From: Haladaptatus sp. R4
GTDB taxonomy: Archaea > Halobacteriota > Halobacteria > Halobacteriales > Haladaptataceae
DNA length: 64,000 nucleotides
Assembly: GCF_001625445.1 (NCBI RefSeq)
Contig: NZ_LWHG01000028.1
Span: forward strand, 62,001-126,000
Reading direction: 5' to 3'
The notes below the pieces were generated by a model. That model saw only the letters and a list, made by a program, of their open reading frames with translations, had not been told where the DNA came from and did not search any database. The position numbers were made by a program, and so were the translations under genes. Below are positions 30,115-64,000 of this stretch, one piece after another (positions within the stretch are counted from its first letter, which is position 1; the number at the start of each line of letters is the position of its first letter).

Positions 30115-30570
30115 TCACAAATCCGCGACGAGCGGTTCGGGGTAGAGCGTCTCCTCTCCCTCGGAAAACACGGTCGGGGACAGCCAGACGCACTCGATTT
30201 CTTCGTCCAATTCTGCTTCGTAGCCCGAGAACTCGTCCTCCTCGTACGGCCACGACTCCGCGATGTTCGCTTGGTAGACGCGCCACACTTCGTGCTGTTT
30301 CTGTCCGTCGGTCGTGAACACCTCTTCGTACGTTCCGACCTCCCGAACGTTCGAGAGCGAGACGCCCAACTCCTCGTCGAACTCGCGGTGAAGGGCGTCC
30401 TCGCTGTGTTCGCCGAATTCGACGCCGCCGCCGAGCGGGTAGTAAAACGACTCGCCGTTCGGGTGGTAGTCGCGGGCGACGAGGAGTTCTTCGAGGTGAG
30501 AGTTTTCGTCGTGGTGATTTTTACGGCGAACCAGACCGCGCGCCGAGACGCGGATGTGTCGTTCGGGCAT
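30115..30570 (-). CDS. Nudix hydrolase
   Basis: This 151-residue protein has a complete Nudix box: GGGVEFGEHSEDALHREFDE followed by ELGV (residues about 47-70), with the REFxEE core that binds the metals. It hydrolyses a nucleoside diphosphate linked to another group; the substrate is unknown. It converges with the isomerase gene, with a nine-base gap. Confidence 0.9.
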   Translation of the reverse strand: MPERHIRVSARGLVRRKNHHDENSHLEELLVARDYHPNGESFYYPLGGGVEFGEHSEDALHREFDEELGVSLSNVREVGTYEEVFTTDGQKQHEVWRVYQANIAESWPYEEDEFSGYEAELDEEIECVWLSPTVFSEGEETLYPEPLVADL

Positions 30571-30657
30571 GGGATTCGGTACGAGTGTTGGCTACGTGAT
30601 GGGACTATCGGAAATCGGTTCTGATAGAATTCGTCTCGACGAGAGATGTCTGGTGGC

Positions 30658-30712
30658 CTTGTGAATGCAGTTACCGAGAACACTACCTCGAAAGCCCCCA
30701 TCCGTTCGCGGT
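30658..30712 (-). repeat. Inverted copy of the 73-base repeat unit
   Basis: Read on the minus strand, this matches the first tandem unit at 31454-31506 over some 53 bases with about six differences. Shared parts are GACCGCGAACGGA, GGGGGCTTTCGAGG and TTCTCGGTAACTGCA. Confidence 0.75.
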
Positions 30713-30929
30713 CCTCCGGAAGACGTTCCGGCTCACATTCGTTCGCGGGCTGCGACTTCCGTGGCCACACTCACGTTCGTTCGTGTGACGCTCGGCCAAC
30801 ATCTCTCATCCGCTCGCTCCTTCGTCGCTCACTACTTCGAGAGGGGTCGGCGAGATGACCACGGTAAACGCGAGTTCAGTCGGAACGAGTTCCGACAACG
30901 TCCCTCTCACTGCGTTCGCGGGACCAGGC

Positions 30930-31096
30930 GGCCCCTTTCATCCCACCCGACCGTAACGCCCCGCACCACACGCCTCCCCAACCGATTCGCTCCGGGAGAG
31001 CGTTGCCCTCCCGTGCTCCCGTTCGCACGCTCACGGGAACTCCACTCCTTCCAGTCGTTCCGCTCATCCACCGTCAGAGCTTCGCTCTGACGAGCC
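30930..31096 (-). repeat. Left half of the inverted composite repeat
   Basis: On the minus strand this holds, in order, a hairpin GTCAGAGCGAAGCTCTGAC with flanking GGCTCG and GGTGGAT (31066-31096), then GAGCGAATCGGTTGGGGAGG (30971-30992), then GATGAAAGGGGCCG (30930-30943). The same three modules recur on the plus strand at 31248-31375, with the first two in swapped order. Confidence 0.7.
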
Positions 31097-31247
31097 ATTC
31101 GTTCGCTACCGCTCACGAAGACCTCGCACGATAGCCAGTCAGGTCCTCAGCCGACCGTTGGCTTCGGACCTGCTGGCCTGCGCGCCACCCGGCTGGACGG
31201 GCTACACGATACGAACCAACCGCACGGCGCGCGCGAAAAACGCGCGC

Positions 31248-31375
31248 GAGCGAATCGGTTGGGGAGGATGTGGCCCGGTGTGGGGCGGTTGCGGTGCTGT
31301 GTTTGGGTGTCCTCGTGAATGGAGTGAACGAGGGCTCGTCAGAGCTTTGCTCTGACGGTGGATTGAAAGGGGCCG
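31248..31375 (+). repeat. Right half of the inverted composite repeat
   Basis: The plus strand carries GAGCGAATCGGTTGGGGAGG (31248-31267), then the hairpin GTCAGAGCTTTGCTCTGAC with flanking GGCTCG and GGTGGAT (31333-31363), then TTGAAAGGGGCCG (31363-31375). The hairpin loop differs from the left copy while the stem is kept. Confidence 0.7.
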
Positions 31376-31453
31376 TCCGCTCGCGCACCGTTTAGTCGCT
31401 GTGTAGGCTCTATCCACGCGAGCGGTGCTGAGAGCGTGGATATCCTGCACAGC

Positions 31454-31672
31454 GACCGCGAACGGACGGGGGCTTTCGAGGTCGTCTTCTCGGTAACTGC
31501 AATCACAAAACCATCAAAAACTCGTCGTAGCGAGCGTGGCGGGGGCTTTCGAGGCGGTCTGCTTCGCAGCAACTGTAATCACACACCCATCAAACACCGC
31601 TTTTCGTAGCGGACGGGATTTTCGAGGCCCCTCTCAGCAACTGCAATCGCAACGGAAGCAAAACCACGACTC
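31454..31672 (+). repeat. Three degenerate tandem repeats with an exact 73-base period
   Basis: The core GGGGGCTTTCGAG starts at 31468 and 31541, and a decayed form (CGGGATTTTCGAGG) starts at 31614. Each core is followed by a variable hairpin-like part, then by AACTGCAATCAC or close variants, and by an ACCATCAAA-like block in the first two units. Confidence 0.8.
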
Positions 31673-31836
31673 TGAAATCGCTCTTCACTCAGTAGTGTCT
31701 TTCAGTACTATTCAGTAGAAAATAGTATTTTTCAGTATCTCGTTGATTTCACGATTTCACTCCTCCTCATTCCATCGTCCATCCTTGCCCTAGCCATCAA
31801 ACACTAAGCCCCTTCCCGGACAATTGAAACCCGATC

Positions 31837-32937
31837 ATGACACTGAAAATCGGTGTGTTGGGGTATCGATTCATGGGGAAGGCTCACGCCAACGCCATGG
31901 CCCGACTGCCAATGTTTTTCCCGGACGCGCCGGACATCGAACGCCACACGCTCATCGGCCGGAACGAGGAGGCGCTCGCGGAGGCCGCCGAGCGACTGGG
32001 ATTCGAACACACGAGTACGGATTGGGAGGAAGTGATCGACGAGGTGGACGTTTTCTACAACCTCGGGCCGAACTTCGTCCACGCCGAACCGTCCATCGCG
32101 GCGCTGGAGGCGGGTGTACCCGTCCTCTGTGAGAAGCCGCTCGCGGCGAACCTGGCGAACGCGGAGCGGATGGCCGACGCCGCGGAAGCGGCAGGCGTGC
32201 CGACCGCGACGGCGTTCAACTACCGGTACATCCCGGCGATTCAGTACGCAAAGAATCTCATCGAGGACGGCGAACTCGGCGAGATTCACCAGTTCCGAGG
32301 GCGCTACCTACAGGATTGGCTGGTGGACCCCGACGCGCCGTGGTCGTGGCGCAACGACGAGGAACTGGCTGGTAGCGGCGCGCTCGGCGACCTCGGCGCG
32401 CACACCATCGACCTCGCGCGCTTCCTCGTCGGCGACGTGGAGCGCGTGTCGGGGCACCTCCGAACGTTCGTCGACGAGCGCCCGGTAGATAACGGAAGCG
32501 AGACCAAACCCGTCACGGTGGACGACGCCTACTCCGCGCAGGCCGAACTGGAAGGAAACGTCATGGCGACGTTCGAAGCCTCGCGGTTCGCCGACGGGCA
32601 CAAGAACGACCACTCCATCGAGATTCACGGCTCGGAGGGCAGCCTGAAGTTCTCGCTCGAACGGCTCAACGAACTGGAGGTCCTGCGCGGCGACGACCGC
32701 GGCTACGAGACGATTCTCGTGACCGACGAGTCCGACCCGTACATCGACCACTGGTGGCCGCCGGGCCACGTCATCGGGTGGGAACACACGTTCGTCCACG
32801 AGAACTACGAGTTCCTCACAGCAGTGGAATCAGGAGAGGAGTACCGTCCGAACTTCGACGATGGGCTGGAGATTCAGAAGGTGCTGGACGCTATCGAGCG
32901 AAGCGACGAGAGCAGCGAGTGGGTCACCGTCGAATAG
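31837..32937 (+). CDS. Gfo/Idh/MocA family oxidoreductase
   Basis: This is a 366-residue enzyme. The Rossmann start is KIGVLGYRFMGKAHANAM, the EKP motif is CEKPLAANLANAERM (near residue 98), and the catalytic segment is GSGALGDLGAHTIDLARFL. It resembles the group of sugar dehydrogenases with a long C-terminal domain ending in a GWEHTFVHENYEFLTAVESG region. With the MocA gene at 26978 and the TIM-barrel gene it suggests stepwise sugar oxidation. It follows the non-coding repeat region and has no obvious operon partner. Confidence 0.9.
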   Translation: MTLKIGVLGYRFMGKAHANAMARLPMFFPDAPDIERHTLIGRNEEALAEAAERLGFEHTSTDWEEVIDEVDVFYNLGPNFVHAEPSIAALEAGVPVLCEKPLAANLANAERMADAAEAAGVPTATAFNYRYIPAIQYAKNLIEDGELGEIHQFRGRYLQDWLVDPDAPWSWRNDEELAGSGALGDLGAHTIDLARFLVGDVERVSGHLRTFVDERPVDNGSETKPVTVDDAYSAQAELEGNVMATFEASRFADGHKNDHSIEIHGSEGSLKFSLERLNELEVLRGDDRGYETILVTDESDPYIDHWWPPGHVIGWEHTFVHENYEFLTAVESGEEYRPNFDDGLEIQKVLDAIERSDESSEWVTVE

Positions 32938-34039: not shown

Positions 34040-34345
34040 ATGACCGTTCCCGTTCGATACTACTGCCCTCACTGCGGTGCGATTGCGACGCTCGACCGGC
34101 GAGCCAATCTGGCCGACAAATCGGTGACTGCCGACCCGCTGGATGGATGGACGTACGCCAACGCCTACGACGACTTCGAGGACACGGACGGCGTCGAAAT
34201 CGTCTGTGGTGCGAGCGAAACCGACGGCGATGGCTGCGGCGAACTGTACTACCTCAACTTCATCCGATACGAAAACGGGGAGGAACTCGACCCAGAGGTG
34301 CCGCTCCGTCCCGAAGACGCCCCGAACTTCGACTTTCGGACGTAG
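34040..34345 (+). CDS. Small zinc-ribbon protein, haloarchaeal hypothetical
   Basis: This is a 101-residue protein. The N-terminus YYCPHCGAIATLDRRANLADKS has one CxxC knuckle. A further Cys pair (VCGASETDGDGCGELYYLNF) would complete a zinc ribbon. I do not recognise a named family. The stop codon (34343-34345) falls within the first unit of a 17-base tandem repeat. Confidence 0.7.
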   Translation: MTVPVRYYCPHCGAIATLDRRANLADKSVTADPLDGWTYANAYDDFEDTDGVEIVCGASETDGDGCGELYYLNFIRYENGEELDPEVPLRPEDAPNFDFRT

Positions 34346-34419
34346 TGGATATTCGGACGTAGTGGATATTCGGACGTAGTGGATATTCGGACGTAGTGGA
34401 TATTCGGACGTAGTGGATA
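34335..34419. repeat. Five tandem copies of a 17-base unit
   Basis: The unit TTCGGACGTAGTGGATA repeats exactly from 34335 to 34419. The first copy includes the TAG stop codon of the zinc-ribbon gene, so every copy carries that same TAG. This looks like slippage-type expansion of the gene end. Confidence 0.9.
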
Positions 34420-63401: not shown

Positions 63402-64000
63402 ATGTACGAGGGCAAATCCGTCGCGGTCGTGGTCCCGGCGTACAACGAGGAAGGACTCGTCGGCGGCGTCATCGACACTGTCCCCGAGTTCGCCGACCGG
63501 GTGTACGTCATCGACGACTGCTCGACCGACGGAACGTGGGCCGAGATTCAGTCGCACGCCGAACGCGCCGAAGCGGTCGCGGACGGTACGACGATGGGCG
63601 ACGGCGGAGCGATGGACGACGGCGGTCGAACGGGCGACGGCGGAGCGATGGACGACGGCGGTCGAACGGGCGACGGCGGAGCGATGAGCGGCGGTGGCAG
63701 GATGAACGACGGTGGCAGGATGAACGACGCTCGGGCGAACTTCGACCGGCGTATCGTGCCGATCCGTCACTCCGAAAATCGGGGCGTCGGCGCGGCCATC
63801 AAAACCGGCTACTGTCGTGCGCACGAGGAGAACATCGACGTGACGGCGGTGATGGCCGGTGACGGCCAGATGCGTCCCGAGATGTTGGCTCGAATCATCC
63901 AACCCATCGTGGACGGCCGGGCCGACTACACGAAGGGAAACCGCCTCTCGACGCCGGGATTCCGCGAGGGAATGTCGGCGTGGCGGAGTTTCGGCAACTG
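63402..64000 (+). CDS. Glycosyltransferase family 2 protein, 3' end outside the window
   Basis: The visible 199 codons form a GT-A-type start: VAVVVPAYNEEGLVGGVIDT, YVIDDCSTDGTWAEI, then a long insert, then RHSENRGVGAAIKTGYCRA and AVMAGDGQMRPEMLARII. This is the dolichyl-phosphate sugar transferase type seen in archaeal glycan loci. The insert (residues about 66-109) is a Gly/Asp-rich tandem repeat absent from typical relatives. The ATG follows the dehydrogenase stop with no gap. The acceptor and donor are unknown; a polyprenyl phosphate acceptor is plausible. Confidence 0.88.
   Translation, partial: MYEGKSVAVVVPAYNEEGLVGGVIDTVPEFADRVYVIDDCSTDGTWAEIQSHAERAEAVADGTTMGDGGAMDDGGRTGDGGAMDDGGRTGDGGAMSGGGRMNDGGRMNDARANFDRRIVPIRHSENRGVGAAIKTGYCRAHEENIDVTAVMAGDGQMRPEMLARIIQPIVDGRADYTKGNRLSTPGFREGMSAWRSFGN
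63597..63728 (+). repeat. In-frame tandem repeat inside the glycosyltransferase gene
   Basis: Two identical 36-base units (63597-63632 and 63633-63668) encode GDGGAMDDGGRT. They are followed by a partial third unit and two NDGGRM-type pieces. All keep the frame, so the protein gains a flexible insert of about 44 residues. Confidence 0.85.

Follow-up and report, generated by a model that had tools for sequence, protein, structure and literature searches.

A 73-base repeat in Haladaptatus sp. R4 as the probable arm of a large, modular, MITE-like palindrome

In a gap between two genes of Haladaptatus sp. R4, three repeat units begin exactly 73 bases from one another despite having diverged in sequence, raising the question of what keeps such a spacing. 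We use the 64,000 nucleotides around this locus (the window), together with the rest of the genome and the genomes of other haloarchaea, to ask what the repeat is and whether its period matters. A first-pass annotation of the window had proposed selection on the length of the unit or on a fold within each unit; we find that the observation is real and that its interpretation was only partly right and misread in detail. With a probability of roughly 0.75, we read the repeat as one arm of a large modular palindrome, a MITE-like mobile element that is non-autonomous and of the haloarchaeal MITE kind.

The array and the element that contains it

The three cores start at 31469, 31542 and 31615, one base later than first annotated (31468, 31541 and 31614) and indeed 73 and 73 bases apart. 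The cores are of the type GGGGCTTTCGAGG, and the third copy, at 31615, reads GGGATTTTCGAGGC. The units are strongly diverged, with ungapped identities between them of only 36/73, 28/73 and 28/73. The inverted fourth copy is also present and is longer than the 30658-30712 originally assigned to it: 30634-30713 pairs with 31454-31533 in an inverted match of 80 nt that is 81% complementary. None of 2000 shuffles gave an alignment score as high as those of the units with one another or of unit 1 with the inverted copy; Tandem Repeats Finder did not report the 73-base array. That the arm sequence matches tens of further sites in the genome, with a best E of 1.8e-30, is independent evidence against a chance array. 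Tandem repeats of other kinds lie further along the window: a 17-base unit (TTCGGACGTAGTGGATA) in five perfect copies at 34335-34419, just downstream of a small ORF, and glycine/aspartate-type repeats at 63596-63729 with periods of 18, 36 and 72 bases, partly perfect.

The array belongs to an element of about 1.05 kb that sits in the gap between two divergently transcribed genes, with the following features:

30115-30570, minus strand: NUDIX hydrolase gene, flanking, outside the element (Pfam NUDIX, E 2.6e-11)
30634-31677, no strand: the entire non-coding palindrome, with approximate outer limits (arms in inverted orientation, inverted repeats nested between them, unit profile, fold)
30640-30707, minus strand: left arm, a single terminal unit, the inverted fourth copy (profile match E 1e-17; 81% complementary to right unit 1 over 80 nt)
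30973-31267, no strand: core inverted repeat CCTCCCCAACCGATTCGCTC (30973-30992 / 31248-31267, 100% complementary)
31066-31096 and 31333-31363, no strand: small hairpin CGTCAGAGCTTCGCTCTGACG in two inverted copies (inverted repeat, 90% complementary)
31373-31470, no strand: right subterminal hairpin (inverted repeat, sequence read directly; hairpin slot shared with other elements)
31460-31526, plus strand: right arm unit 1, innermost and best preserved (profile match E 3e-21)
31532-31601, plus strand: right arm unit 2 (profile match E 3e-17)
31609-31665, plus strand: right arm unit 3, outermost and decayed (profile match E 2e-7)
31837-32937, plus strand: Gfo/Idh/MocA oxidoreductase gene, flanking, outside the element (Pfam GFO_IDH_MocA domains, E down to 2.7e-36)

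The right subterminal hairpin has an outer stem of CCGTCCGCTCGCG / CGCGAACGGACGG and an inner stem of GTCGCTGTGTAGG / CCTGCACAGCGAC (31395-31407 / 31444-31456). The core carries a motif, RTCGGYTGGGGAGG, that occurs 60 times in the Haladaptatus sp. R4 genome (reversed control 0). The proposed fold in each unit is not borne out: DNA folding of the units gives z values of +1.0, +0.6 and +1.8, no better than shuffles. The whole element folds far better than its shuffles (z -10.5 for 30634-31545), a compact relative reaches z -12.5 over its full length, and the fold is a property of the whole element rather than of a single unit. An Rfam scan of the window gave no match at the gathering score, and a tRNA scan found nothing.

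Dispersed copies, empty sites and relatives

In the 4.9-Mb genome of Haladaptatus sp. R4 (G000) the arm sequence gives 48 matches and the core 134 match pieces, which cluster by eye into about 45 elements with paired arms, lying between genes; 40 loci were retrieved. Most loci have outward-pointing units on each side of a palindromic core, and at some only one arm is recognisable. The earlier idea of a recurring unit in varying copy number survives here as the unit of a dispersed mobile element with one to three units per arm. A composition test found no gene-like ORF inside the elements, and a few loci have a predicted neighbour that overlaps an arm. Neighbouring genes are in tandem in 18 cases, convergent in 9 and divergent in 4, with no preferred arrangement. 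Two contigs end inside element copies, as expected of repeats that break assemblies. Phage records hold no match to the element, and its plasmid matches, which include Halorussus and Haladaptatus, are short and unannotated.

We searched for the flanks of 14 other elements in four congeners. At 8 of the 14 sites (L066, L069, L074, L077, L081, L085, L088 and L091) at least one congener is empty, with the genes separated by little more than the length of the flanks, in intergenic stretches too diverged for exact insertion junctions to be read. The comparisons are between species rather than strains; we conclude from the empty sites that the elements have moved, though not necessarily in recent times. 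One locus (L071) is filled in three species, where 3, 1 and 1 units can be recognised. Within the genus the elements are patchily distributed: three species have 22 to 26 matches, and six have none or one.

Six congeners keep a collinear arrangement at the window's own site, with a shorter gap that holds little in one (G008) and, in the other five (G001, G002, G005, G006 and G007), other sequence with short matches to this core or arm. In three of these (L120, L121 and L122, in G002, G005 and G006) repeated GATTGGAGTCG motifs near the end accompany the same core motif, CCTCCCCAACCGAT; this is a second terminal type on a shared core. In two further species (G003 and G004) the flanks of the gap, 30571-31836, lie about 18-20 kb apart and inverted, which places an inversion breakpoint within the gap. 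An inversion mediated by the element was considered and rejected, as neither units nor core motif occur in the stretches examined there.

Beyond the genus, the core motif RTCGGYTGGGGAGG is present in 80 of 145 genomes sampled from the class (reversed control 0-1), with copy numbers in the tens in several genera belonging to four families. In other families GGGGCTTTCGAGG occurs in outward pairs 240-410 bp apart, in compact elements that follow the plan CCTCGAAAGCCCC - hairpin - GCCCCTTTCAGTCC...GGACTGAAAGGGGC - hairpin - GGGGCTTTCGAGG. Four of the six compact elements in G163 have direct repeats of 8-11 bp, placed 34-36 bp outside both cores (CGGCGAGC, CCTAGGAC, CCGGCGAGCGG and CCTGGTAAT), and by our estimate chance would give such a repeat in fewer than 1 of 1000 elements. 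Two elements share CGGCGAGC, so that for those two a target preference and element sequence are indistinguishable; the remaining two words are unrelated.

The ends of the G163 elements match the ends of IS6-family elements at 17/18 (GGTAGTGTTcAGATAAGC) and 16/18 (GGCACTGTcTAGtTTAGC), where the intact IS6 ends were taken from genomes other than G163. Several of those IS6-family elements in related genomes carry perfect 8-bp duplications. When a full transposon with the G163 ends was sought, only an IS6 remnant beside a similar end came to light. IS6 elements generate target repeats of 8 bp, and a haloarchaeal MITE is counted among them (PMC7986276, PMC6807381). Given the IS6-like ends and the direct repeats at both ends in 4 of 6, the compact G163 elements are best read, on sequence grounds, as IS6-driven MITEs. 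As a separate observation, two remnants of 70-80 bases (L193 in G040 and L194 in G124) have flanks similar to the flanks of complete elements in related species; in them, one half of a hairpin seems joined to one half of a different hairpin, as a deletion of the middle would produce.

The Haladaptatus branch shares modules with these compact elements, has other ends and shows no detectable duplication; in the Haladaptatus sp. R4 genome no target duplication rises above background. The outer ends of the window's family read ...TCGTAGCGAACGG, lack the IS6-type terminal sequence (GGCACTGT... or GGTAGTGTT...) present in the G163 relatives, and gave no match to IS6 ends in the Haladaptatus sp. R4 genome. 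For this reason we do not class the window's element among the IS6 MITEs. The same genome yields a single weak IS6-type match, below the family cut-off, and we found no transposase matching the window's own family.

Period, unit turnover and hairpin exchange

How much meaning should be given to the number 73? Genome-wide, the spacing of adjacent units ranges from 65 to 78 (mean 73.3, SD 3.0, n=36), the commonest values are 72 or 75, and two spacings drawn at random from this distribution are equal in 12.5% of cases. The exact 73/73 is one case within this spread, and the number has no special role. Units are spaced by 53 and 62 bases in a sister genus (G014); in another family (G059) the spacing is exactly 57 in 9 of 11 cases, in arms (loci L225-L237) whose units differ in sequence. 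The proposed selection on a 73-base length is not supported by these values, and across relatives it is the copy number that varies as predicted while the 73 bases are not kept. What stands of the kept unit length is that the period is the length of the lineage's terminal module and fairly steady within each lineage.

The relationships among units point to how the arms may have been built. A unit resembles its neighbour no more closely than it does units of other elements (p 0.99), so neighbours did not arise by recent local duplication with a fixed spacing. The nearest relative of a unit lies in another element in 62 of 66 cases, and of two successive units the inner is the closer match to the family profile in 29 of 36 pairs (p 3e-4). 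From closest relatives that lie elsewhere and inner units that are better preserved, we infer growth from the inside out through exchange between copies, a pattern of relationships that local slippage alone does not predict. Local duplication also occurs, as the nearly identical 53-base arrays of G014 (96-99%) demonstrate.

The hairpins have a history of their own. Across 74 hairpins, the mean perfect helix is 7.8 bp within an element, 4.0 bp across elements and 2.8 bp in shuffles. Outside Haladaptatus the stems pair within and not between elements (9-12 versus 3.4-5.2), whereas in Haladaptatus alone the contrast is weak (6.4 versus 5.5). Pairing is kept while the sequence changes, either because the hairpin itself is selected or because template switching corrects it, a process that likewise perfects palindromes. 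At two sites orthologous between G097 and G067, identity is 88-92% in the flanks and 91-97% in the left hairpin, versus 58-63% in the right hairpin, whose stem at both sites is different yet still largely self-complementary. A third pair (G097 and G057) shows no such swap; in this small sample, single hairpins are apparently exchanged.

The window's element follows a plan of outward terminal units starting GGGGGCTTTCGAGG, a subterminal hairpin within each arm, and a paired core in the middle. The element encodes no protein, and its transposase is therefore presumed to be supplied in trans; for the compact relatives the mover would be an IS6-family (DDE) transposase, judging from ends and target duplications. 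The tandem units would be extra copies of the terminal module. Recombination or gene conversion among the dispersed copies may add new units at the inner side of an arm, older units would be pushed outward and decay there, and the near-constant spacing would be the length of the lineage's terminal module. Counting against this explanation are the missing target duplication and the non-IS6 ends of the window's family, the single weak IS6-type match in its genome, the weak stem contrast within Haladaptatus, and the local duplication in G014. More tentatively, and at clearly less than even odds, the elements may belong to a superfamily of modular palindromes that extends across several haloarchaeal families. 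In it, whole hairpins would be exchangeable cassettes, their stems substituted as full self-complementary pairs in one fixed slot between GAAAGCCCC and GCCCCTTTC, on the left or the right and in several genera, and terminal modules would stack with a lineage-specific period. If true, the swapping of hairpins would be how such a mobile element evolves, via hairpin cleavage and gene conversion or template switching.

Several of these observations could also be accommodated if the elements were chromosomal sites maintained by the host for nucleoid organisation, recombination, gene expression or a structured RNA, inherited vertically and homogenised, with units as binding sites at a meaningful spacing. 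Related elements do occupy the window's gap in several congeners and orthologous gaps in G097 and G067, stems keep pairing as they change, and the period is steady per lineage. Yet close relatives lack the element at many sites and the genus is patchily populated, neither an Rfam match nor a preferred gene arrangement is found, and compact relatives have target duplications and transposon-type ends, so that we consider host maintenance unlikely. Mobility by another route, IS200/IS605-type single-strand transposition acting on subterminal hairpins, is suggested by the near-terminal palindromes without a transposase gene that Haloquadratum PATEs also have; PATEs, however, lack terminal inverted repeats and target duplications (PMC3119063), while the window's arms are inverted repeats and the compact relatives have duplications, which makes a PATE-like element quite improbable.

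Simple tandem duplication of a 73-base unit by slippage at this locus, with no wider meaning, would account for adjacent, regularly spaced units and has its precedent in the G014 arrays. For this genome it is contradicted by same-arm units that differ as much as units of different elements and have their closest relatives elsewhere, and it leaves aside the inverted arm and the shared core at about 45 places; we regard it as highly improbable. We give still less credence to arms translated as C-terminal peptide repeats in the frame GAFE, with length kept in steps of three. A stretch of 15 codons is open in this frame in 72 of 83 units and exact-motif spacings are multiples of three in 16 of 25 cases (p 0.0016 if independent), but another frame is equally open (70/83), the window's 73 breaks the frame, G014 has 53 and 62, and the +3 indel resembles one inherited subfamily difference. 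Third codon positions are the most conserved (0.785 versus 0.712 and 0.776), and on this ground we reject coding arms.

Significance and comparison with known systems

With the repeat read as part of a mobile element, dozens of gene-free gaps in Haladaptatus sp. R4 are explained by one modular mobile family, as probably are many in other haloarchaea, and its compact members are linked to IS6 transposases. Stems that change and yet pair, along with apparent swaps of single hairpins, would then be a trace, left in nature, of the ways in which archaea cut, repair and copy palindromes.

The REPIN/BIME sequences of bacteria are dispersed mosaic palindromes between genes, built of inverted module pairs with species-specific sequence. 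The window's family shares these traits; its compact relatives differ from REPIN/BIME in having target duplications and IS6-type ends. Among archaeal systems, the likeness to IS6-family MITEs lies in being non-coding, transposase-free and haloarchaeal, and in the compact G163 relatives with IS6-type ends and duplications of at least 8 bp. Here the reference is MITEHarch3, a haloarchaeal IS6 MITE with an ISfinder entry (PMC6807381), compared here by its description; the archaeal literature we searched did not contain the repeat sequences and mentions MITEHarch once, without sequence. IS6 MITEs of 227 and 336 bp have been described (PMC7986276), whereas the window's element measures about 1 kb, stacks its terminal units, has different ends and shows no detectable duplication.

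The PATEs, SMRs and MITEs of Haloquadratum walsbyi (PMC3119063) are similar as transposase-free mobile repeats in high copy between haloarchaeal genes, and the PATEs also in their near-terminal palindromes. PATEs differ in having neither inverted ends nor target duplications, and SMRs are about 110 bp long without duplications (PMC3119063), while the window's element is large and modular with inverted arms, and has compact relatives with duplications. Lastly, the BrickBuilt MITE of Porphyromonas gingivalis (PMC4596501) is also a MITE between genes with tandem repeats in varying number. Its 23-nt repeats are internal (PMC4596501), whereas here it is the terminal modules that are stacked, in both arms and with a period specific to the lineage.
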